From: Mangrovimonas cancribranchiae
GTDB lineage: Bacteria > Bacteroidota > Bacteroidia > Flavobacteriales > Flavobacteriaceae
Direction: 5' to 3'
Length of the DNA stretch: 64,000 nt
Assembly: GCF_037126245.1 (NCBI RefSeq)
Contig: NZ_CP136925.1
Span: 674,001 to 738,000, forward strand
Position 1 is the stretch's first letter, and each line of letters starts with the position of its first letter. The notes under the pieces were generated by a model. The model was not told the origin of the DNA and ran no database searches. It saw only the letters and a list, made by a program, of their open reading frames with translations. Below, one piece after another: positions 942 through 40,724 of this stretch. The translations under genes were made by a program, and so were the position numbers.

Positions 942-949
942 TAATTTTG
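942..949 (+). promoter_or_regulatory. Promoter -7 box for porU
   Basis: TAATTTTG matches the Bacteroidota TAnnTTTG -7 consensus. It lies 67 bases before the ATG of porU at 1016. The longest open frame would start at a TTG inside this box, so that start is rejected. No clear -33 TTG is visible at the usual spacing. Confidence 0.45.
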
Positions 950-1015
950 AAACGTTTTTTAAAAAACGTGCTATTAATCAATAATATTGCCATATTATTT
1001 ACGTTATTGCTACCA

Positions 1016-4000
1016 ATGAAAAAGAAATTAATACTTTTTGTTTTTTTAGTTAGTACTTATGTTCATGCGCAACAAAAGCAGTTTGAAATTCAGTGGGATG
1101 GGTATCAAACATTGTTTACTAGTAGTTATAAAGTAGAAGTACCTTTTTTTAATAAAGAGAACTTTAATTACAATGCTATTGATGGGTTACAATTTATAAC
1201 GCAGTGGCAAAGTGGATTTATAAATGAAGCCTCTGTTTCGGTTGATAATGTTACTTATGAAACCATTTCGAGAGCGCAATTAAAAGATGTCGATGTTAGT
1301 ACTATTCCTAATAATTTAAGATTTTCAGCAAAAAATACAGAGGCTCGTGGGGTTTCTGGCGTAGAGTTTAAGTTGTCACCGATAATAAAATTGAATAATA
1401 ATTCTTTTAAGAGAGTAACTTCTTTTACGGTAGATTACAATTTGGGTAGTTATAATAGAAATGCTAGTAACAGGCAAAATATTGATGACTCTGCTTTAAG
1501 TACTGGACAATGGTTTAAGTTTTATATCGATAAAACGGGGGTGTTTAGATTATCGAAAAGTTTTCTGTCAAACTTAGGTGTTAATGTTAACGATATTGAT
1601 CCAAGAACTATAAAACTGTATGGTAATGGCGGTAATATGATTCCTTACTCCAATGCATTACCTCAGTCCTACGATGTTCGTGAAAATGCCATTAGAGTGG
1701 TTGGAGAAAGCGATGGCGTTTTTAATGATAATGACTATATTTTATTTTATGGTCAAGGGCCAAAATCCTGGGATGTTGAAAAAGGCACACACGTAAACTG
1801 TTATACTAATAGAACTTATTACTATATTAATATAAGTCCAGGTTTGGGGAAACGTATTCAGCCTTTTATTCAACCTACAGGAAATGTAGATATGGTAATA
1901 AATACATTTCATGACTATCAATTTCATGAAAGCGATGAGTTTAATTTAGTAAGAGTAGGAAGACGTTGGTTTGGGGACCGTTTTGATATTGAGAATAATA
2001 AAACATTCACATTTCAATTTCCTGATCTTGTTGAAACAGAGCCTGTAAGTTTTAATATACAAACAGCATCAACAGCAGAGGTTTCTACAAGTTTAGATGT
2101 TTCTATTAACTCTCAAGATGTTTCTACATTAATATTTTCACCTATTACCGATTCTAATTTAGCTATTCCAGCTAGTTATGCACAAGATGTTAATGTTAAT
2201 TCATCCACAATTACAGTTAATTTAAATTATAATAATAGTGGGAATCCAAGTTCTATGGCCTATTTAGATTATATTGCTATAGAAGCTACCAGGAATCTTA
2301 ACTTTTCTGGAAGACAACTTACATTTAAAAACAATGATGTTAGTCGTGAAAATGGGATTGGACAATATGATATTACCAATACGTCACAAGTATCAGAAAT
2401 TTGGGATGTAACAGATGTTTATAACGTTACTAATTTTGTTAATACAGATAATAGTAATACACTAAGTTTTACGTCCAATTTAGGGAGTGAAAAAAGCTAC
2501 GCGCTTGTCACGCCTTCCGATTATTACCAAGCATTTTTAGGTGAGCGTACACGAGTGAGTAATCAAAACTTAAAAGGCACAATTTTTCAAAACCAACAAG
2601 GCGAATTTGAAGATATTGATTACCTTATAGTTGCTCCTCAAAATATGCTTAATCAAGCCGAACGATTAGCGCAAATTAATCGCAATTACAACAACTTAAA
2701 TGTTAAAGTAGTCTCTTTAAGTCAAATCTATTCAGAATTTAGTACAAGTAACCCAGATATTGGAGCTATAAGAAACCTTGTAAAATATATTTATGATAAC
2801 GCAAGTTCCTCAGAACATAGAATTAAATATTTATGCTTATTTGGCGATGCATCATTTGATTATAAAAACAGAATAGAAAATAATACAAACATAGTGCCTT
2901 CTTGGCATGCGTACAATAGTTTTAACTTAACCAATTCCTTTGTGTCTGATGATTTTTATGGTATGATGGGGGATAATGAAGGAACCATGGCGACTTCAGA
3001 TAAACTAGATATTGCTGTAGGAAGAATTTTAGCAGATACACCACAACGTGCGAGAATTTTAGTTGATAAAATAGAGACTTATTACAAAGAAGCTTCTTTT
3101 GGTAGATGGCGAAATAATTTTGTCGTCTTATCAGACGATATAGATGAAGAATGGGAAAGTGTCTTGCAAGAAACCACAGATGGGATTGCAAATACCATTA
3201 CTGAGGAACACCCGTTTTTAAACCCCATAAAGATTCATATGGATGCTTATCAGCAAGAGTCTACAGCAGGTGGAGATAGTTACCCTACTGTAAATACAGC
3301 TCTATTAAATGCAATTGAAAATGGCGCTTTAGTAATTAATTACTTTGGCCATGGTGGGGAAGACGGATTAGCACACGAACGTATTTTTCAAAAACCAGAT
3401 TCACAAAGCTTAAATAATATTTGCAAACTTAATTGTTTTGTAACGGTAACCTGCGAATATACTCGTTTTGATAACCCGTTACGTCCAACAGCAGGCGAGT
3501 TTACTTATTGGAATGAAAATGGAGGTGCCGTTGGATTAATCTCAACAACACGTCAAATATTTGTAAATGTTGGTATTACATTTAATAATGTTTTAGAAGA
3601 ATATCTATTTTCATTTAATGACGACGATGAATATCAAGATTATGAGTTTCCCTCAATGGCAGAGGCTTTAAGGCTAACCAAAAACCATCCTAATATCTCA
3701 GGTATTGGGCAAAGACGTTTAGTGTTTTTTATAGGTGATCCAGCCATGAAATTAGCGTTTCCTAAGCCTAATGTAAGATTAACCGCTGTTAACGATGTGC
3801 CTTTAAACCAAGGAATTGATGTGCTAAAAGCACTTGATAGAGTAAAAATTTCTGGCGAAGTTACTGATGTTTCAGGCAATGTGCTTTCAAATTATAATGG
3901 CGTGCTTTCTACAACTATTTTCGATAAAAAAATTGAACGTGAAACCTTAGGGAATGATGGAACGCGTTCCGGCGGTCAGCTTATAATTATGCCTTTTGAA

Positions 4001-4888
4001 ACCTTAGGAGAAACACTCTTTAGAGGACAAGCTTCCATAACCAACGGGCAGTTTGAATTCGAATTCGTCATGCCTAGAGATATTGGTATAAACGAAGGTT
4101 ACGGTAAAGTTAGTTTTTATGCAAAACAAGACGAGCAATTAAACGACCAATCTGGTGCCGCTGTAAATACCATTTTAATAGGGGGTATTAATAACGAAGC
4201 TCCAGAAGACAACAATGGCCCCATTATAAACCTGTTTATGAATGACGAAAGTTTTGTCTCAGGAGGCATAACTAACGAGTCTCCAAGTTTATTAGTGAAA
4301 TTGGAAGATGATAATGGTATTAATACAGCAAGTGGCATTGGACATGATATTGTAGCAATAATCGATGGCGATGAAACCAATCCGTTTGTGTTAAACGATT
4401 ACTACGAAACCGAGCTAGATAACTTTCAAAGAGGAATTGTAAATTACCCTTTTCGTAACTTAGACCCAGGCTTACATACATTAACATTAAAAGCTTGGGA
4501 TGTTTATAATAATTCTTCCACCTCCGAAATCCAATTTGTGGTACAGAACGAAAATCAGCAACTTGTTATCGATAATGTATTGAATTATCCAAATCCTTTT
4601 GTTAATTACACCGAATTTTGGTTTAACCACAATAGTTCATCGCCGTTAAACGTTTCAGTACAAATATTTACGGTTTCAGGGAAATTAGTAAGAACTTTAA
4701 ACAGTCAAACTAATTCCTCTAATTGTTGCAATAATGGAACATCGTCCTTGTCAAGAGACATTATTTGGGATGGTCGAGACGATTTTGGCGATAAAATAGG
4801 AAAAGGCGTGTATGTATATAAATTAAAAGTACATTCCCCATCATTAAATAAAACCGTAGAGAAAATAGAGAAACTTGTTATCCTTTAA
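1016..4888 (+). CDS. porU: T9SS sortase PorU (C25 family cysteine peptidase)
   Basis: This is a 1290-residue surface peptidase that removes C-terminal sorting domains from T9SS cargo and helps attach them to the cell surface. ATG 1016 is chosen because it begins a clean signal peptide (MKKKLILFVFLVSTYVHAQ) and leaves the promoter box upstream. The gingipain-type C25 catalytic pair is visible: His779 in YFGHGGEDG and Cys813 in VTVTCEYTRF. The 34-residue spacing fits the family. The C-terminus (SLSRDIIWDGRDDFGDKIG... YVYKLKV) is a FlgD-like/T9SS-type beta domain, which PorU keeps uncleaved. porV follows 27 bases downstream, in line with PorU and PorV working in one attachment complex. Confidence 0.93.
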   Translation: MKKKLILFVFLVSTYVHAQQKQFEIQWDGYQTLFTSSYKVEVPFFNKENFNYNAIDGLQFITQWQSGFINEASVSVDNVTYETISRAQLKDVDVSTIPNNLRFSAKNTEARGVSGVEFKLSPIIKLNNNSFKRVTSFTVDYNLGSYNRNASNRQNIDDSALSTGQWFKFYIDKTGVFRLSKSFLSNLGVNVNDIDPRTIKLYGNGGNMIPYSNALPQSYDVRENAIRVVGESDGVFNDNDYILFYGQGPKSWDVEKGTHVNCYTNRTYYYINISPGLGKRIQPFIQPTGNVDMVINTFHDYQFHESDEFNLVRVGRRWFGDRFDIENNKTFTFQFPDLVETEPVSFNIQTASTAEVSTSLDVSINSQDVSTLIFSPITDSNLAIPASYAQDVNVNSSTITVNLNYNNSGNPSSMAYLDYIAIEATRNLNFSGRQLTFKNNDVSRENGIGQYDITNTSQVSEIWDVTDVYNVTNFVNTDNSNTLSFTSNLGSEKSYALVTPSDYYQAFLGERTRVSNQNLKGTIFQNQQGEFEDIDYLIVAPQNMLNQAERLAQINRNYNNLNVKVVSLSQIYSEFSTSNPDIGAIRNLVKYIYDNASSSEHRIKYLCLFGDASFDYKNRIENNTNIVPSWHAYNSFNLTNSFVSDDFYGMMGDNEGTMATSDKLDIAVGRILADTPQRARILVDKIETYYKEASFGRWRNNFVVLSDDIDEEWESVLQETTDGIANTITEEHPFLNPIKIHMDAYQQESTAGGDSYPTVNTALLNAIENGALVINYFGHGGEDGLAHERIFQKPDSQSLNNICKLNCFVTVTCEYTRFDNPLRPTAGEFTYWNENGGAVGLISTTRQIFVNVGITFNNVLEEYLFSFNDDDEYQDYEFPSMAEALRLTKNHPNISGIGQRRLVFFIGDPAMKLAFPKPNVRLTAVNDVPLNQGIDVLKALDRVKISGEVTDVSGNVLSNYNGVLSTTIFDKKIERETLGNDGTRSGGQLIIMPFETLGETLFRGQASITNGQFEFEFVMPRDIGINEGYGKVSFYAKQDEQLNDQSGAAVNTILIGGINNEAPEDNNGPIINLFMNDESFVSGGITNESPSLLVKLEDDNGINTASGIGHDIVAIIDGDETNPFVLNDYYETELDNFQRGIVNYPFRNLDPGLHTLTLKAWDVYNNSSTSEIQFVVQNENQQLVIDNVLNYPNPFVNYTEFWFNHNSSSPLNVSVQIFTVSGKLVRTLNSQTNSSNCCNNGTSSLSRDIIWDGRDDFGDKIGKGVYVYKLKVHSPSLNKTVEKIEKLVIL

Positions 4889-4915
4889 GAAAAAATTATA
4901 TTTGTTAAATAAATC

Positions 4916-6187
4916 ATGTTTATGAAAAAATACATTCTTGCCCTATCTGCTTTATATTTTGGAGTGCAAATACAGGCACAAGCACAAACAGTTACAATTC
5001 CAGATGCACAAGATTCCCGCGTTATAACCACAGGATTGCCGTTTGTGTTAATTGCGGCTGATGCCAGAGCAGCAGGTATGGGAGATATGGGAGTGGCAAC
5101 ATCCGTAGATGCCTTTTCCCAACAATGGAACCCAGCAAAATATGCCTTTTCCGAGACTAAACAAGGTGTTGGGGTAAGTTATACCCCGTATTTAAGTAAG
5201 TTAGTAGATGATATATTTCTGGGAGGATTAACGTACTTTAATCGTTTAAATGAACGAAGTGCTTTTGGAGCTAGTTTTAGGTACTTTTCATTAGGAGAAA
5301 TTGAATTTGTACAAGATGAAAATAGTACACCACTGGCTATGAACCCTAACGAGTTTACCTTGGATGTATCGTATGCTTTAAAATTAAGCGAGCAGTTCTC
5401 TATGGCGGTTGCCATGCGTTTTTTACATTCCGATTTAAAATTACCTGGTTATTCTGGCGATCCAGAACCAGCGAGTACATTTGGTGTAGATATTTCAGGA
5501 TATTACCAAAGCGAAGAAGAAGCTTATGCTAATTTTAATGGGCGAACGCGTTTAGGCTTTGCTATACAAAACATAGGCCCAAAATTTAAATACGATGCTC
5601 AAGGTCAAGAAAACTTTCAACCAACAACCTTACGTTTAGGTGGTGGATTCGATTTTATTTTAGACCAATACAATACCGTTGCTGTAACTGCTGAAGTAAC
5701 AAAATTATTAGTGCCAACACCACCTAAATACGGGACAGAATATGAATATACCGATAATAATGGCAATGGTGTTTACGATCCAGAAAATGGTACAGATGAA
5801 ACCGATACAGATGAATTAGGAGCTATTGTGACGCCTTCTGTAATTATGGATGGCCAAGATCCAGACGTAGGCTTTTTTCAAGGAATGTTCCAATCGTTTG
5901 GCGATGCGCCAGGTGGATTTAGCGAAGAAATGAAAGAATGGACTTGGGCTTTAGGAGCCGAGTACCGTTACCAAGATTCGTTTGCCTTTAGAGCAGGGTA
6001 TTTCAATGAATCCGAAGAAAAAGGTGCGCGTAAGTTTTTTGCTCTAGGCGCAGGATTTAAATACAATGTTGTTGGGGTAGATTTATCTTATTTATTCTCA
6101 GCATCAAAAGTGCAAAGTCCTTTAGAAAATACGTTACGCTTTACGTTGTCGTTTAACATCGATAGAAATGCGTACCAAGAATATTAA
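4916..6187 (+). CDS. porV: T9SS outer membrane channel/shuttle protein PorV (LptO)
   Basis: A 423-residue FadL-like outer-membrane beta-barrel that carries T9SS cargo from the translocon to the attachment complex. A signal peptide ends near AQAQT. The conserved PorV N-terminus TIPDAQDSRVITTGLPFVLI follows, then ADARAAGMGDMGVAT, and the protein ends in alternating beta strands (LRFTLSFNI). An acidic, Asn/Gly-rich loop at about residues 275-305 (DNNGNGVYDPENGTDETD) looks like an extended surface loop. The start may be ATG 4916 or ATG 4922; both precede the same signal peptide. It is probably cotranscribed with porU, and a strong hairpin terminator follows at 6215. Confidence 0.92.
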   Translation: MFMKKYILALSALYFGVQIQAQAQTVTIPDAQDSRVITTGLPFVLIAADARAAGMGDMGVATSVDAFSQQWNPAKYAFSETKQGVGVSYTPYLSKLVDDIFLGGLTYFNRLNERSAFGASFRYFSLGEIEFVQDENSTPLAMNPNEFTLDVSYALKLSEQFSMAVAMRFLHSDLKLPGYSGDPEPASTFGVDISGYYQSEEEAYANFNGRTRLGFAIQNIGPKFKYDAQGQENFQPTTLRLGGGFDFILDQYNTVAVTAEVTKLLVPTPPKYGTEYEYTDNNGNGVYDPENGTDETDTDELGAIVTPSVIMDGQDPDVGFFQGMFQSFGDAPGGFSEEMKEWTWALGAEYRYQDSFAFRAGYFNESEEKGARKFFALGAGFKYNVVGVDLSYLFSASKVQSPLENTLRFTLSFNIDRNAYQEY

Positions 6188-34498: not shown

Positions 34499-36790
34499 CT
34501 ATAAATGTATTCTAAAACTAAAGTTTGGTGTAATTCCTAAAGAGGTGTTTTCTACTTTATTTACTGTATTATTATCTTCTAATATATAATAGGTGTTAAT
34601 TATGTTTTTTCTGTTTAAAACATTCCAAACAGACGCTCCTAAAACAGCTTGTTTATCTTTAAAAATTGCAAACGTATAAGTGGTAGAAATATCGGTACGC
34701 AAATAATCATTTAAATTTTGATTATTGGGCGATTGATAATTGATAGTGGTATTTTGAGTTTGACTAAACTCTTTTGGAGCCGTGTAAGGTCTGCCAGTGT
34801 GCCAATTTAAACCCAGAGCTATTTTAAACCTGTTAATAGCATAAGATCCAGCAAATGAAAGTTGATGCCTAATATCTATATTATTAGGAAAGCTATGGTT
34901 GTTATTTAATGCCTTAAAAACGTAATCGTTTTTACTGTAAGTGTAGCTAAGCCAAGTACTCAAATTATTAAACTGTTTGTTAATTAAAAAATCAATACCG
35001 TAGGTTTTGTAATGCCCTGTAGCGTTTGTAAATTGGTATTGATTTTGAAACCCTTGACTTCTTGTTGTAATACCATCAACGTGTTTAATAAAACCTTCCG
35101 CACTAACTAATAAGCTGCTTTTATTAAAATGAAGTCCAAGAGAAGCTTGCTTGCTTTTTATAATGGGAATAGTGGTGTTGTTAGCTAAAACCCAACGCCT
35201 TTTTTCTATGCCTAAAAAGTCTTTTTGAAGATCTATAATTTGAGATGTTGTCTGGCTTTTTAATTCACCTAATACTTCAATTTTAAAGTAGTTTAAAAAC
35301 TGTTGATTAAAACGAATTCTAGGTTCCACTAAAAAGGTGTTGAATTTTGAAATATAATTTGTTCTAGCTCCTATTTTTAACAGCGTTTGTTGGTTTTTAG
35401 ACGATAATTCTCCTTCAATATATCCAGAATGTGTACGAATAACCTCTTTAATGTAGCTGTTAAAAGGCGGGTTGTTAACATCTTCAAAATTACTTATGCC
35501 AACTTCAAAAAACTGGTAGCCACCTTCAAATTTTAAATATGGAGATACACTAAAATCTACATGTAATTTAAATGTGTTTTCAAAAACTTCGTTTTCCTGT
35601 TTTAAACGCTGATTGTTAACTAAATCGACATTAGCAGCATTTAAATTGTAATTAGAAATGTATGCTTCGGCTGTTGTGGTTAGCTTATTATTCCAGTATC
35701 TAGAATAGTTTAAACCACTAGCGATATTGGTTTGTTTTAAGTAACTATCAGAAGCCGATGTTTCTCCATGTATGTTGGCTTGTTCTTTATAATCAAGGGT
35801 GTTTTTACTTAGCATGCCATAAACCTGAAATTTATCTTTTGGCGAGACATTGTATATATATTTTGCAGAGACATCGTAAAAGTAAAAGGTCTCATCGCTA
35901 GAAATACTATGCGATAAATCTGAATCTTGAAACACACGTTTAGTGTATTGTTTATAAGTTGGCGTTTTTACAACATCTGTAAGCGAACGTCTTGCAGCTA
36001 TTTGGATGTTACTATTCTCAGAAATAGGTGTTTTAGCAAAACCATCAACACTAATTAAATTTACACCAGCGCCATAACTAGGTTTTTGTTGAATAGAATC
36101 GGTTAATTGCATGTCAATTACACTAGACACACCATCACCATGTTTAGCACTACTACCATTTTTAGTAACGTGTATTTTTTCGGTTAAATAAGGATTAAAT
36201 GCAGAAATTAAACCAAAAAAGTGACCAGATTGATACATTTTAATGCCTTCCCAAAGGATTAAGTTTTGGTCGTGTGTACCGCCTCTTACATTAATGTTGG
36301 AAACCGTTTCATCCACACTCAAAACACTAGGAAGCGTTTGAATGGTGTGCAGGACATCGGGTTCGGTTAAACCGGGAAGAAGGCCAAATTCTTCTGGTCT
36401 AATAATAATATGGCCTTGTTTGGAAATAGAGAGTCCTTTGGTTAGATATTTCGTGATAAAGACTTCGTCTAATTGCTCTATTTTATAGTTGTTTAATTGT
36501 GTTTTTTTTATCACCACAAACCTATTGTTTAAAACCTTAAACTGTAAGTGAGTATTTTTTTCTAAAATGTTTAAGGCTTCCTCTAGAGTAAGTGTGTTGT
36601 TGGGTAATGGGCTTGTAATGTTTTTTATGTGCTTGTCAGCATAAGAAAAGCTAATATTGTAACGAGATTCAAGTGTTTTTAAAATGTTGGTAAGTGGTTG
36701 TTGTTCTTGTTGAATAGTTTGTGAAGAGAGTTCAAAAGTATTCAACAAAAATAAGATTAGAAAAAGAAATAAAGAGCTTCTTTTACTCAC
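34499..36790 (-). CDS. TonB-dependent outer membrane receptor with STN signalling domain
   Basis: A 763-residue TonB-dependent receptor of the signal-transducing FecA class. After a signal peptide (LFLFLILFLLNTFELSSQ) comes a secretin/TonB short N-terminal (STN) domain (ILKTLESRYNISFSYADKHI... HLQFKVLNNRFVVIKK), the part that contacts FecR. The plug follows (TIQTLPSVLSVDETVSNINV, RGGTHDQNLILWEG), then a beta-barrel ending in ...SFRIHL with a terminal aromatic and hydrophobic pattern. It has no carboxypeptidase-like domain and no SusD neighbour, so it is not a SusC glycan importer. Its start overlaps fecR by eight bases. The ligand is unknown. Confidence 0.9.
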   Translation of the reverse strand: MSKRSSLFLFLILFLLNTFELSSQTIQQEQQPLTNILKTLESRYNISFSYADKHIKNITSPLPNNTLTLEEALNILEKNTHLQFKVLNNRFVVIKKTQLNNYKIEQLDEVFITKYLTKGLSISKQGHIIIRPEEFGLLPGLTEPDVLHTIQTLPSVLSVDETVSNINVRGGTHDQNLILWEGIKMYQSGHFFGLISAFNPYLTEKIHVTKNGSSAKHGDGVSSVIDMQLTDSIQQKPSYGAGVNLISVDGFAKTPISENSNIQIAARRSLTDVVKTPTYKQYTKRVFQDSDLSHSISSDETFYFYDVSAKYIYNVSPKDKFQVYGMLSKNTLDYKEQANIHGETSASDSYLKQTNIASGLNYSRYWNNKLTTTAEAYISNYNLNAANVDLVNNQRLKQENEVFENTFKLHVDFSVSPYLKFEGGYQFFEVGISNFEDVNNPPFNSYIKEVIRTHSGYIEGELSSKNQQTLLKIGARTNYISKFNTFLVEPRIRFNQQFLNYFKIEVLGELKSQTTSQIIDLQKDFLGIEKRRWVLANNTTIPIIKSKQASLGLHFNKSSLLVSAEGFIKHVDGITTRSQGFQNQYQFTNATGHYKTYGIDFLINKQFNNLSTWLSYTYSKNDYVFKALNNNHSFPNNIDIRHQLSFAGSYAINRFKIALGLNWHTGRPYTAPKEFSQTQNTTINYQSPNNQNLNDYLRTDISTTYTFAIFKDKQAVLGASVWNVLNRKNIINTYYILEDNNTVNKVENTSLGITPNFSFRIHL

Positions 36791-37676
36791 GTTTTAATAC
36801 AATTGTATCCTTTGTTTTGCTGTAAGATAGGTGCATTGGCATTGTTATGGACTTTATGGCAACATCTAAGTTGTTGTGTGTAAAACTTCCTGTAAACAAC
36901 GTTTTTGTATCTACCTTATCTGTAATAAATGTTACTTTGTATTGACGCTCAAATTCAGCAATAACATACTCTAACGGAATGCTTTTGAAAGTACTTTCGT
37001 TGTTAAGCCATTGTGGTACTTGAGCGGTTTCTTTTTCAGTGGCAATTTGTTTTCCATCGCGTATTATAAACGTATGTCCAGGAGGTAATTTAGTGTTTTT
37101 AGACTGGTATGTAACGCTAACCAAACCTTCGTAACAAGTGACTTCAAAAAAATTGTCGCGTTGTTTTACATTAAATTGTGTGCCTAAAACAGTCACGGTT
37201 CCTAAATCTGTAATAACATTAAATTTAGAGCCTTTGGCTACTTTAAAAAACGCTTCGCCTTGTAGGAAAACTTCACGATTATCTTTCCACGAATGTTTGT
37301 TGTAGGTTAAAGTTGATAGGGCATTTAAAGTTACCTTAGAGTGATCGGGTAAATTAATGTTATTTTTTTGTGCTATAAGTGTTTTAGTAGTAGTGTCTTG
37401 TGTTGTTGTGTAATAATACACACAAAACCCAATAGCTAATAAAGCTGCTATACGTAATAATGGTTTAAACCATTGACGTTTTGGTTTTATAGAATCAATA
37501 TGGTTTAATGTAGATTTTAGCGCGTTTTCTGTATGGAGCTCAGGAGCTTTAAAATGTTTTAATCCATGAGATAGTTGGGTTAATTTGGCAAAATCTTCAC
37601 GCTGTTTAAATGCCTGAAACTCTTCCTGAGTTAACTCATGATTTAGCCATTTTTTTAATAAATCGTCTTTTTCCAT
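36783..37676 (-). CDS. FecR family anti-sigma/transmembrane regulator
   Basis: A 297-residue FecR-type protein. The cytoplasmic N-terminal part (MEKDDLLKKWLNHELTQEEF) binds the sigma factor. One membrane helix follows (LLRIAALLAIGFCVYYY), then the periplasmic FecR domain (VTVLGTQFNVKQRDNFFEVT) and a C-terminal DUF4974-like domain (LEYVIAEFERQYKVTFI). It relays the ligand state of the receptor to the ECF sigma factor encoded 68 bases upstream. The receptor gene overlaps its 3' end. A candidate ECF-type promoter lies just before it at 37697-37723. Confidence 0.92.
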   Translation of the reverse strand: MEKDDLLKKWLNHELTQEEFQAFKQREDFAKLTQLSHGLKHFKAPELHTENALKSTLNHIDSIKPKRQWFKPLLRIAALLAIGFCVYYYTTTQDTTTKTLIAQKNNINLPDHSKVTLNALSTLTYNKHSWKDNREVFLQGEAFFKVAKGSKFNVITDLGTVTVLGTQFNVKQRDNFFEVTCYEGLVSVTYQSKNTKLPPGHTFIIRDGKQIATEKETAQVPQWLNNESTFKSIPLEYVIAEFERQYKVTFITDKVDTKTLFTGSFTHNNLDVAIKSITMPMHLSYSKTKDTIVLKRE

Positions 37677-37696
37677 AATCTATGTAACACTTATAT

Positions 37697-37723
37697 AACA
37701 GTTGTAGGTTTATTTTTCCTACC
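37697..37723 (-). promoter_or_regulatory. Candidate ECF sigma-dependent promoter upstream of fecR
   Basis: On the minus strand the sequence reads GGTAGG, 16 bases, CTGTT, ending 20 bases before the fecR ATG. The same pattern with the same spacing occurs at 38305-38331 in front of the divergent lipoprotein gene. It does not resemble the TAnnTTTG housekeeping box. Confidence 0.55.
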
Positions 37724-37744
37724 CTTGTTATGTCTTTTTTTAAT

Positions 37745-38260
37745 TTATAACTCATCAATGTCTTTACGTAGTTTTTTTAAGGCTCCATAAATACGCTTTT
37801 CAACAGCTTTTGTCGAGATGTCTAAAAGAGTTGCAATCTCTTTAAAGGTTTTTCCTTCAATTCTATTAAGCATAAAAGCTACTCGTTGGGCTTCGGTTAA
37901 TTTAGAGATAGCTATTTCTAATTTGTTTAAATATTCTTTTTCCTGAAGTAAAAATTCAGGAGATTCGTTAGTATGCGATTTTGGTTTTATTTGTTGATGT
38001 TTCCATACTATTTTTTGATGAGCAGCTTCATTAAGCATTAAATTATTAGCAACAGTAAATAAAAAACTCTTGGCTTTTTCGGGAGACACTTTGGCGCAAT
38101 TTTGCCAGAGTTTAATAAATGCTTCTTGTACTTTGTCTTCTGGGTTTAAATGGCTTCCAAACTTATAATATAAGAAGTTGTGAAGGTTTTCTGCATGCGT
38201 TTTAAACAGCTTAGAAAACAAGATTTTATTACAAATATTATTGTTTAAATTGTTAGGCAT
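37745..38260 (-). CDS. ECF RNA polymerase sigma factor (FecI-like)
   Basis: A 171-residue sigma-70 family factor of the extracytoplasmic-function type. Region 2 is seen in FYYKFGSHLNPEDKVQEAFI-like sequence near residues 30-55 and AKSFLFTVANNLMLNEA. Region 4 is a helix-turn-helix (IATLLDISTKAVEKRIYGAL) near the C-terminus. Immediately followed by fecR and an STN-type receptor, it fits the FecI-FecR-FecA three-part surface signalling design of Bacteroidota. It probably transcribes fecR-receptor and the divergent lipoprotein. Confidence 0.93.
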   Translation of the reverse strand: MPNNLNNNICNKILFSKLFKTHAENLHNFLYYKFGSHLNPEDKVQEAFIKLWQNCAKVSPEKAKSFLFTVANNLMLNEAAHQKIVWKHQQIKPKSHTNESPEFLLQEKEYLNKLEIAISKLTEAQRVAFMLNRIEGKTFKEIATLLDISTKAVEKRIYGALKKLRKDIDEL

Positions 38261-38297
38261 TTTAGTTTTTTAGGAGTATAAATGTAAAAAAAAATGA

Positions 38298-38309
38298 CTA
38301 CCATGGTAG
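38298..38309. repeat. Perfect 12-base palindrome between sigma and lipoprotein genes
   Basis: CTACCATGGTAG reads the same on both strands. Its right half is the GGTAG of the lipoprotein promoter, and its left half places a GGTAG on the minus strand towards the sigma gene. It may be a shared recognition element or a chance extension. Confidence 0.4.
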
Positions 38310-38331
38310 GGGATTTTAGCTTTTGTCTGTT
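38305..38331 (+). promoter_or_regulatory. Candidate ECF sigma-dependent promoter upstream of the repeat lipoprotein
   Basis: GGTAGG (38305-38310), 16 bases, then CTGTT (38327-38331), 35 bases before the ATG at 38367. Identical pattern and spacing to the element before fecR. Confidence 0.55.
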
Positions 38332-38366
38332 TCATTAACAAACAATGTTTAATTTAAAAACCAGCT

Positions 38367-40724
38367 ATGAAACCAAATTTTAAGTACCTGTTTGTTTTGG
38401 CATTTATTACACTATTTTTTGTGTCTTGTCAAGATGAAGAAACCGAAATTAATAACCCAACACCAGACGAAGTTGTAGAATCCAATTCCTCATTGGCCGA
38501 TTTAATGCGTTCAACAGCCGCTTTTGATGGTTCTTTTGATAATATTTTAGATAACGCTAATTGTATTGGTGTTAATTTACCTGTAACCGTTACAGTTAAT
38601 AATACAACAATAGTTATTGAAACACTAGACGACCTTGAGCTTGTCGAAGACATTTTTAATGCTTTTGATGATGATGAAGATATTCTAGAATTTTTATTCC
38701 CTATTACCATTACACTAAACGATTACACTGAAGTTGTTGTGGAAAATGAAGAAGAATTAGATGCTTTTGTAAATAATTGTGTTAACGAACCCGACGTTAT
38801 AGAATGTGTCGATTTTGTATATCCTATTGTGTTCTCTATTTACAACTCTAACTTTCAGGTTATTGATACTGTAGAGATTCAAAGCGATTTTGAACTATAT
38901 GTGTTCCTAGAAAACTTAGATAGCGATGAAGGCGCTGTATTAGCTAGCTTAAATTTTCCAGTGTCATTAATATACGCAAATGGTGATTCAGTTGAGGTAA
39001 CAAGTAACCAAGAATTGGAAAATGCTATTAATAATGCTGAAGAAGATTGTAATTATGTAGCTTGCCAAGCTGAAGAGATAGCGGCTAATTTACAAGAATG
39101 CCAATGGGTTATTACATCGTTCAATGGCGATGATAATTTTATCCAGTACGACTTACATTTTAATACCAATGGCGAACTTCAAATCACCCACGGAGATACT
39201 ACCGAATTTATAGGTGGCGAGTGGAGTGTTACAACTGAAGAAAATGTTGTTTTAACGCTATCAAACCTAACTGCTTTTTCGGGAGATTTAGGTGGCGATT
39301 GGTTAGTGCAAAATTGCGAGTCAAATCAGCTTGTTCTTACGCAGGAGTTTGAAAATCAAATCGTAGAAGTTATTATGGAGCAAGATTGCGAAACTGCAGA
39401 AACACCATTTAATTGTTTTGAAAATACAACCATAACAGCTTGCGATTATGATAATGATGGATTTGCAACATTTGAAATGGAAACACAAGTTTTAGGGAAT
39501 GTTGTTTGCAATGTAGATTTTGTAGCTTCATTTCATGTTTCTCAAACCAATGCCGAAGCTAATGTTAATGCTATTGTAGCACCAAATGCGTATACCAACA
39601 CATCAAACCCACAAACTATTTATCTAAGAGTAGAAGCAATCAATGGTGATTTCCAAGTTTTTGAAATAGAATTAGTTGTTGAGGACTGTAGTTCAAATTG
39701 TTCTGAAACAGATGTTGACGCGTACCTACAAGGATGTAATTGGAACGTAGTTAATTTTAATGGCGATGACCATTTAATAAACTATAATTTAGATTTCACT
39801 TCAAGTACAGAGGCAATTATTACAGGAAACGGTATAACTACAACAATGTATTGGTCGTCTTATCAAGCGGCAGAAGGTGTTGTAGTAGAGTTTTCAAATG
39901 TTGCTGCTCCTAATATACAAGCTATAACAGGAAGTTGGTTAGTTGTAGCTTGTGAAGAAGGTAGGTTAGAATTTGAATCTCTTAATAGTGCAAATACCAT
40001 GGTTATGGAATGTCATTATTACACTCCAGAAGAACTATTAACTACTTTAAGTGAATGCCAATGGGAAGTATATAGTTTTCAGGTTGATAATGTAGATCAA
40101 ACATCAGATTACAACGACGTCTTATTCTCATTCTTTGAAAACGATTTTGCCATTGCCGAGGTAGGAGAGAGTACAGTAAATTATGGAAACATAGAGGCAG
40201 AAAATACTAACGAAGGTACAGAGTTGTCAGTTCTTTTTGCTATGACAGGAGAGACACATAGTTTAGGAGGGTATTATTCTGTTATTTCAATAACAGAAGA
40301 CGAAGTAACGTTTTATACATCGCAACCTAGACGTTTAATTTTAAGAAAAACTTGTACAAATGATAACCAAGATGACGACACTACTCAAATTAAAGACTGG
40401 TTATACGATGGTAATTGGGAAGTAACATACTCTACAATGGAAAGCGCAGATAACTCTCAAGATTATGATGGTATTGTATTTAACTTTCAAAATAATGCCA
40501 CCTTTTTAGGCGATAATGGCAGTTGGATAGCAGAATTAGATTACGAAGTGCTTAGAGACCACGAAGGAAATTTAAGATTTATAATTAATTATTTAGGACA
40601 ATTCCCTTATTGGCAAATGGATGACGATTGGTACATTACTAGTGTCACCAGTACACGAATAGAACTACATGCTGTAAACGATGCGAACAATTCAGATTTC
40701 GTATTAGTATTTGAAAAAATGTAA
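38367..40724 (+). CDS. Large repeat-containing surface lipoprotein linked to the ECF/FecR/TonB receptor locus
   Basis: A 785-residue acidic lipoprotein (signal LAFITLFFVSC, lipobox VSC, Cys21) of unrecognised function. Two kinds of repeat are visible. Residues about 60-235 hold four copies of a short unit with an FPVxxxL-type strand followed by a V-V-x(E)-EL helix (LPVTVTVNNTTIVIETLDDL; FPITITLNDYTEVVVENEEE; FPVSLIYANGDSVEVTSNQE). Residues about 240-785 hold four lipocalin-like units that begin with a CxW or NW motif (LQECQWVITSFNGDD; LQGCNWNVVNFNGDD; LSECQWEVYSFQVDN; LYDGNWEVTY). The adjacent sigma/FecR/receptor genes and the shared promoter pattern suggest a ligand-capturing partner of the TonB receptor. 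This role is inferred. Confidence 0.85.
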   Translation: MKPNFKYLFVLAFITLFFVSCQDEETEINNPTPDEVVESNSSLADLMRSTAAFDGSFDNILDNANCIGVNLPVTVTVNNTTIVIETLDDLELVEDIFNAFDDDEDILEFLFPITITLNDYTEVVVENEEELDAFVNNCVNEPDVIECVDFVYPIVFSIYNSNFQVIDTVEIQSDFELYVFLENLDSDEGAVLASLNFPVSLIYANGDSVEVTSNQELENAINNAEEDCNYVACQAEEIAANLQECQWVITSFNGDDNFIQYDLHFNTNGELQITHGDTTEFIGGEWSVTTEENVVLTLSNLTAFSGDLGGDWLVQNCESNQLVLTQEFENQIVEVIMEQDCETAETPFNCFENTTITACDYDNDGFATFEMETQVLGNVVCNVDFVASFHVSQTNAEANVNAIVAPNAYTNTSNPQTIYLRVEAINGDFQVFEIELVVEDCSSNCSETDVDAYLQGCNWNVVNFNGDDHLINYNLDFTSSTEAIITGNGITTTMYWSSYQAAEGVVVEFSNVAAPNIQAITGSWLVVACEEGRLEFESLNSANTMVMECHYYTPEELLTTLSECQWEVYSFQVDNVDQTSDYNDVLFSFFENDFAIAEVGESTVNYGNIEAENTNEGTELSVLFAMTGETHSLGGYYSVISITEDEVTFYTSQPRRLILRKTCTNDNQDDDTTQIKDWLYDGNWEVTYSTMESADNSQDYDGIVFNFQNNATFLGDNGSWIAELDYEVLRDHEGNLRFIINYLGQFPYWQMDDDWYITSVTSTRIELHAVNDANNSDFVLVFEKM

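Follow-up and report, generated by a model that had tools for sequence, protein, structure and literature searches.

Few ECF sigma factors of the Bacteroidota have, to our knowledge, a promoter that is known. According to the accessible parts of the respective reports, the E. coli fec system possesses promoters upstream of fecA and of fecI, and transcription of fecIR is not autoregulated (PMC9249621). In ECF systems of Bacteroides, the periplasmic domain of the anti-sigma factor meets a TonB-dependent outer-membrane protein, in this case a SusC-like porin, and the same 2013 reconstruction describes the prediction of ECF sigma promoters as a challenge that needs mapped start sites (PMC3878776). 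For Bacteroides thetaiotaomicron, 50 ECF sigma factors are reported (PMC12596196).

The locus described here lies in a 64,000-nucleotide stretch of the Mangrovimonas cancribranchiae genome, the whole of which is denoted as the window. As in the E. coli FecI-FecR-FecA system, an ECF sigma factor, an adjoining FecR-family regulator, and a TonB receptor with an N-terminal signalling-type domain are found together. The sigma factor (37745..38260, minus strand, 171 aa) consists of regions 2 and 4 only, with Pfam Sigma70_r2 and Sigma70_r4_2 above cut-off; with 106.9 bits against NCBIfam TIGR02985 (Sig70_bacteroi1) it stays under the curated cut-off of 126.4 and is thus not a member, and it also falls under the NCBIfam cut-off of NF058625. 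The FecR-type anti-sigma regulator (36783..37676, minus strand, 297 aa) scores 66.1 bits with Pfam FecR and 35.8 bits with FecR_C, exceeding both cut-offs. It is followed by the TonB-dependent receptor (34499..36790, minus strand, 763 aa), which harbors an N-terminal STN-like (FecR_C/DUF4974) domain and a plug, with FecR_C (36.7 bits, residues 30-92) and Plug (28.1 bits) above cut-off and Pfam STN (22.8 bits) under its cut-off of 28.4. On the plus strand, a divergent gene (38367..40724) encodes a lipoprotein of 785 aa with CQDEE after the lipobox and, judged from sequence and Foldseek single-domain matches, lipocalin-like repeats. The unit thus comprises sigma factor, FecR, TonB receptor with STN-like domain, and a lipoprotein that is probably exposed on the cell surface. 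The names ffh, folE, cysS, lgt, secDF, porU, and porV used for this region are our assumptions from the look of the proteins; what we take to be porU- and porV-like genes of the type IX secretion system are located at window positions 947-6187, ~32 kb left of the unit.

The sigma gene is flanked on either side by the same bipartite element. Element 1 (37693..37723, minus strand) reads GGTAGG-N16-CTGTT-ATAT and is the proposed -35/-10 promoter of the fecR-receptor operon; element 2 (38305..38335, plus strand) reads GGTAGG-N16-CTGTT-TCAT and is proposed to serve the lipoprotein gene in the same way. On present evidence it is very probable that the two elements represent the -35 and -10 boxes of two promoters read by RNA polymerase carrying the FecI-type ECF sigma factor encoded between them. 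This placement differs from E. coli Fec in that the element lies between sigma gene and fecR, so that the gene for the regulator is grouped with that for the receptor in the target operon and separated from sigma, and in that the divergent lipoprotein gene forms a second target. Both boxes also differ from those of FecI.

An earlier note on this DNA had pointed to the same pair of blocks on the two strands, in each case with 16 bases between the blocks and ending 20 to 35 bases before a start codon. The GGTAGG and CTGTT blocks are found at 37697-37723 (minus strand) and 38305-38331 (plus strand), both with a spacer of exactly 16, and the distance from the end of CTGTT is 20 bp to the fecR ATG (37676) and 35 bp to the lipoprotein ATG (38367). 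The genome scan that the earlier note had proposed as a check revealed that the pattern is confined to this locus: in the whole genome (3,085,202 bp), GGTAGG-N15-17-CTGTT has exactly two matches, both of them here, with one match for the reversed control. A profile trained on 45 sites of relatives, without the genome of the window and with two sites from other Mangrovimonas included, ranks element 1 first (E 5.8e-6) and element 2 second (E 0.0015) in the whole genome, followed by a partial match at E 0.086. A relaxed form of the longer pattern (YTGTT-NTAT, at most one mismatch) is present at five further places, one of them exact (G000:C1:1270855); all five are located inside ORFs of 128-724 aa and probably reflect chance. 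Short motifs do recur, and this one exact match inside an ORF might be taken as a sign that the element pair itself is a chance resemblance in an AT-rich genome. Against this stand the two matches in the window vs 0.03 expected from dinucleotide shuffles (two or more in 0 of 100 shuffles), the count of only two in the genome, and the retention of the element across 80 loci of relatives; conservation of this kind in species that keep the genes, as was seen, counts as refuting a chance origin, whose probability we regard as negligible.

This conservation was followed in named genomes, where 518 relatives of the sigma factor were found; the best 80 of these 518, all from Flavobacteriaceae and 69-95% identical, were used, the closest one coming from Mangrovimonas. 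Around these 80 sigma genes, fecR is a neighbor in 78 loci, the receptor in 78, the lipoprotein in 76, and, adjoining the latter, a gene that we presume from its look to be ffh in 74. Within 330 bp of the sigma gene, with one mismatch and spacers of 12-20 allowed, 69 of the 80 loci show a best match on the side of fecR and 78 on that of the lipoprotein gene; the loci are kin, so that these and the following locus counts are not independent. Eight of the 11 missing fecR-side sites have a strict element further downstream or overlapping the sigma stop codon, two are situated at contig ends, and one locus (L299) has none; on the lipoprotein side, one of the two misses (L306) shows a strict element once the sigma start is read further in, and the other (L303) has none. 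Overall, the element precedes fecR in 77 of 78 assessable loci and the divergent lipoprotein gene in 79 of 80, which bears out its expected retention in species with the same gene order. L303 (Lacinutrix jangbogonensis, lipoprotein side) and L299 (Kordia aestuariivivens, fecR side) are the only clear losses among the 80 named loci.

The geometry is nearly constant. All 147 best matches at the named loci have a spacer of 16, ties being settled in favor of 16 (one tie on recount); counted without such preference, 16 is found in 129 of 130 strict matches (the other having 12) and in 18 of 35 one-mismatch matches, for which 12-20 were allowed. AT bases after TGTT are conserved, and the element is oriented toward its gene. 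In 65 of 69 loci, 17-21 bp separate the end of CTGTT from the fecR start, the distance being 10 bp in three further loci and 31 bp in one; a distance of 17-21 bp would leave a leader of roughly ten bases. In seven loci, 530-1061 bp with an ORF of 163-333 aa separate the sigma gene from the element, which is still found 18-20 bp before fecR. Since the distance to fecR is preserved despite the extra stretch, the element is to be assigned to fecR rather than to the end of sigma. These stretches (L242, L250, L253, L260, L270, L294, and L305) are placed exactly between the sigma stop codon and the fecR promoter, marking an insertion-tolerant spot, and their longest ORFs differ in the first residues.

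A conserved, spaced motif before two genes could in general be an operator, and the element might accordingly be bound by an unrelated DNA-binding regulator of both genes, with the sigma gene merely sharing the locus. The spacer of 16 in 129 of 130 strict matches, the single orientation toward the gene, and, for 65 of 69 loci, the distance of 17-21 bp from fecR speak against such an operator, as does the distribution of the element across the family. In 149 family genomes, GGTAGG-N16-YTGTT-NTAT has 184 matches vs 10 for the reversed pattern, and 183 of the 184 strict sites fall in the 104 genomes with a match to this sigma factor (E <= 1e-20); nine of the 10 reversed-control sites are also found in these 104 genomes. 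The pattern is present in 84 of the 104 sigma-positive vs one of the 45 sigma-negative genomes (G116; Fisher p ~5e-21, uncorrected for kinship and genome size). Paralogues that use another hexamer are part of the list of 20 sigma-positive genomes without the strict long pattern, and NTAT is not conserved throughout. A looser profile search (E <= 0.05 per genome, with stricter filters) recovers 97 of the 104 sigma genomes and also yields matches in 15 of the 45 genomes without sigma, which may be due to chance, to sites of other sigma factors, or to a real exception. The best of these 15 is located at G009:C24:178076-178113 (E 3e-4).

In principle, a transcription factor linked to the unit might show the same covariation. 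In paralogous units, the hexamer tracks residues of sigma region 4. Ninety sigma loci of the family were compared, 30 returned directly and 60 picked from a listing roughly by E-value, with some rows passed over (e.g. G005:C11, G140:C28, G103:C6, and G090:C1). The strict pattern is present on both sides in 47 of these loci, on one side in 25, and on neither in 18; 19 of the 25 one-sided loci gain the other side at one mismatch with spacer 16. Fourteen of these 18 loci form one paralogous clade nested among motif-bearing sigma factors (support 100/75), and ten of the 14 carry NTCAGG or ATAAGG, in unchanged register to a TGTT box, on either side of the sigma gene (10/10). Two smaller hexamer classes rest on three loci and one locus, respectively: L193, L195, and L197, which form a second clade, have TTTGGG before fecR and, in two of the three, NTTGGG on the other side, and L202 harbors CGGGTA and AGGGTA. 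Exceptions on the divergent side are L193 without a pattern match, L195 with the box TTGTC, and L202 with the box ATGTT. In nine genomes, the two kinds of loci occur together, each with its own hexamer class at its flanks, the second kind being NTCAGG/ATAAGG in G028, G024, G130, G141, G125, and G097 and TTTGGG in G109 (one side only), G085, and G045.

Between 72 GGTAGG and 10 NTCAGG sigma factors, the positions that separate the two groups by a chosen threshold are 114, 124, 133, 148, 149, 152, 155, 161, 165, and 168 together with the C-terminal tail, i.e. all from residue 114 on, the region-4 half of the protein; four loci without a strict site (L192, L196, L224, and L227), each with a one-mismatch site on at least one side, were left out of this comparison. 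Residue 149 is serine in 72 of 72 GGTAGG and threonine in 10 of 10 NTCAGG sigma factors, residue 152 is alanine in 71 of 72 and valine in the NTCAGG group, and residue 155 is lysine in 72 of 72 and tyrosine in the NTCAGG group. Sigma factors of the TTTGGG class display threonine 149, valine 152, and histidine 155, and that of L202 has threonine 149 and arginine 154. Via alignment to SigL, residues 152 and 155 would correspond to T169/S172 of E. coli sigmaE and T168/T171 of SigW, which, according to the accessible part of the source, touch base -34 in solved complexes (PMC6713349). Residues 149, 152, and 155 are predicted to lie in the -35-reading recognition helix of the sigma factor. In the compared sequences, the paralogue hexamer changes together with these residues, with TGTT box and spacing kept. 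Taken with the co-occurrence with this sigma factor, this makes an unrelated regulator improbable as the reader of the element.

Transcription of the genes by the housekeeping sigma factor from TAnnTTTG boxes, with the element as an accessory, is less probable still. It would agree with the start-site map of Flavobacterium psychrophilum, in whose accessible description the three promoter motifs of highest abundance are variations of TAnnTTTG (PMC9723704). Within 100 bp of the sites, at -10 to +90 relative to the hexamer, where a start site would be placed, TAnnTTTG was found in only four of 147 cases, under the shuffled rate of 6%.

Promoter recognition by the ECF sigma factor encoded between the elements therefore remains the preferred reading. 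Elements, conservation, near-constant geometry, co-occurrence with sigma, and co-divergence with the presumptive -35-reading helix are established at the level of sequence, and recognition by this very sigma factor would account for them: conservation, sigma co-occurrence, the kept distance to fecR, and the joint divergence of hexamer and helix make it very probable that the element serves this sigma factor as its promoter. Transcription of the receptor gene by its cognate sigma is likewise suggested by comparative evidence. The proposal of the earlier note that the element is the sigma recognition site is in this way strengthened by its conservation, by the co-occurrence in 149 genomes, and by the concerted change of hexamer and helix, and its assignment of the lipoprotein to the regulon of a four-gene unit gains support from the element before this gene in 79 of 80 named loci.

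The sigma gene itself does not appear among the targets. Its leader (38261..38304, minus strand) is without a GGTAGG element on the sigma strand, and a strict element directed at the sigma gene within 400 bp upstream is found in 0 of 80 named loci, which fits the previous remark that sigma lacks the element and would not be strongly autoregulated. A conserved housekeeping TAnnTTTG promoter within 60 bp upstream of the sigma gene is not indicated by the sequences, as one of the 80 loci has an exact octamer, 39 differ in the last base, and 40 have neither; a TAnnTTTG-like octamer is thus found before the sigma gene in half of the relatives only.

By analogy with cell-surface signalling, a ligand, perhaps presented by the surface lipoprotein, would bind at the TonB receptor and change its periplasmic STN-like domain, which would then act on inner-membrane FecR and set the sigma factor free. 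The freed sigma factor would transcribe fecR and the receptor gene leftward and the lipoprotein gene rightward. Both this presumed signal path from receptor via FecR to sigma and the sign of the feedback are inferred. Since the sigma gene is not its own target, the loop would raise anti-sigma, receptor, and lipoprotein, not sigma; and as the promoter is placed between sigma gene and fecR, anti-sigma output should grow with the response, constituting a built-in brake.

The divergent lipoprotein has no Pfam or NCBIfam match up to E 0.1. Directly after the lipidated cysteine, a polar residue is followed by acidic residues, and 70 of 74 lipoproteins read have two or more acidic residues between +2 and +7, mostly as CQ[DE]E. 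A lipoprotein export signal (LES) is reported, in the accessible part of the source, to bring lipoproteins to the surface in this phylum (PMC5080379), and the protein is thus probably surface-exposed. The predicted model of the 785-aa protein has a mean pLDDT of 72 and a pTM of 0.32. Only three single-domain matches with probability 1.00 are among the 50 Foldseek matches listed, namely 4qrl (lipocalin-like, TMt 0.66), 5byp (uncharacterised, 0.59), and 8ehc (potempin E, 0.71). The top Foldseek matches by E-value (TbpB) were rejected as models for the fold of the whole protein, with TM values of 0.08-0.11 that are not meaningful. A laminin-G/concanavalin-like domain is present in six of 30 aligned lipoproteins and absent from that of the window. 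With the export-like signal, the single-domain matches, and the variable laminin-G/concanavalin-like domain, the family resembles modular surface lipoproteins whose outer part varies, and it may have a binding role.

Two features go beyond the earlier note, namely the other hexamers of paralogues described above and a regulon that in relatives seems to include other surface proteins. In the genome of the window itself, the profile of relatives' sites finds only the two places well above background. Among 40 extra-site loci, a non-random choice from a listing of pattern matches, two (L101 and L102) are sigma loci and were left out of the tally. The remaining 38 sites lie away from the sigma locus, and 36 of them fall outside ORFs of at least 150 aa (one of the 36, L068, lies inside a 452-aa ORF under an alternative rule), and 29 of these have a same-strand gene within 300 bp. 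A signal-peptide-like start, assigned by a crude rule, is found in 22 of these 29 first genes vs 42 of 112 neighboring genes (p 3e-4). Four of 10 first genes searched (L067, L078, L079, and L080) encode type IX sorting domains, two others being cut before the C-terminus. From these sequences it seems that the regulon reaches type IX-secreted proteins in some relatives.

A recurring target is an operon beside a gene that we take, from the look of its product, to be folE; it encodes a secreted protein of ~155 residues, which has no Pfam match in the one searched, and then a giant protein. The giant protein read whole (L123:9181-15801) combines CUB/PKD domains with a type IX sorting domain. The pair also occurs at L083, L085, L086, L093, and L097, and in several genomes it is located ~30 kb from sigma. 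An upstream model match (E <= 0.0025) is present at 15 of the 30 loci that carry the 155-residue gene, all in sigma genomes, and the other 15, sigma genomes among them, have none, which indicates that regulon membership varies between genera. In the genome of the window, a 2495-aa protein with type IX type-B sorting (L135:4482-11969) is encoded beside folE just right of the window, at the position occupied by the regulated operon in relatives; no convincing element precedes it, the best match in the gap lying on the opposite strand and being partial (E 0.03 for 20 kb), and the 155-aa protein of the folE operon has no match in this genome at E <= 1e-8. Four genes in three genomes (L067, L077, L080, and L081; G044, G036, and G019) have the element upstream and share GHSLI near the N-terminus of their products, the two searched (L067 and L080) having type IX sorting domains. 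At L064, L092, and L100, in three genomes, the element lies 215, 2269, and 2437 bp, respectively, before related-looking genes whose products have similar starts (MK..KYI); at L092 and L100, no same-strand ORF is listed in between.

Read jointly, these data would describe the four-gene unit as a portable surface-sensing module, whose duplicates are insulated by few changes in the recognition helix (149, 152, 154, and 155) and a matching new -35 hexamer at both flanking promoters, with spacing and TGTT fixed. With four hexamer classes in one bacterial family, FecI-type sigma factors of Bacteroidota would then possess a natural code of specificity, and type IX-secreted adhesin-like proteins would likewise be driven by the module in a number of genera. 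We put forward this comprehensive view tentatively, giving it slightly less than an even chance. The underlying logic, that the same sigma-specific box flanks the sigma gene on both sides, yields a promoter without expression data; the element predicts targets genome by genome, the natural hexamer-helix pairs can serve for testing the recognition code, and one sensor becomes tied to an unrecognised lipoprotein family and, in some relatives, to type IX-secreted proteins.

No description of GGTAGG-N16-YTGTT was met in the open-licence literature on ECF promoters, FecR systems, export signals, and -35 recognition, as far as the accessible text of these papers extends, and absence from print is not claimed. 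The start-site map of F. psychrophilum, a member of the same family, comprises six motifs, none of which is described in the accessible part as GGTAGG-N16-YTGTT; SM6 is likewise an ECF-type promoter motif, which differs by a CGT box near -10 and whose targets include T9SS components (PMC9723704). A TGTT box near -10, as in the element, is described for two SigW-1 promoters of B. thetaiotaomicron in the accessible part of that report, the motif being non-significant (PMC12596196). Motif PM2 of B. thetaiotaomicron has boxes at -10 and -30 and, compared by its accessible description only, is unlike the GGTAGG element in being near-palindromic and tied to oxidative stress (PMC7366714). With the ECF/anti-sigma systems of Bacteroides that involve SusC-like proteins, the unit shares the phylum and a presumed TonB-dependent outer-membrane partner for the anti-sigma factor. 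It differs from these systems in that the lipoprotein is encoded on the opposite strand and has no SusD-family match, with no Pfam or NCBIfam hit to E 0.1, and in that the receptor, at 763 aa and without NCBIfam match, is not of SusC size. On sequence grounds, the unit is best regarded as a variation on cell-surface signalling of the FecI/FecR/FecA type.
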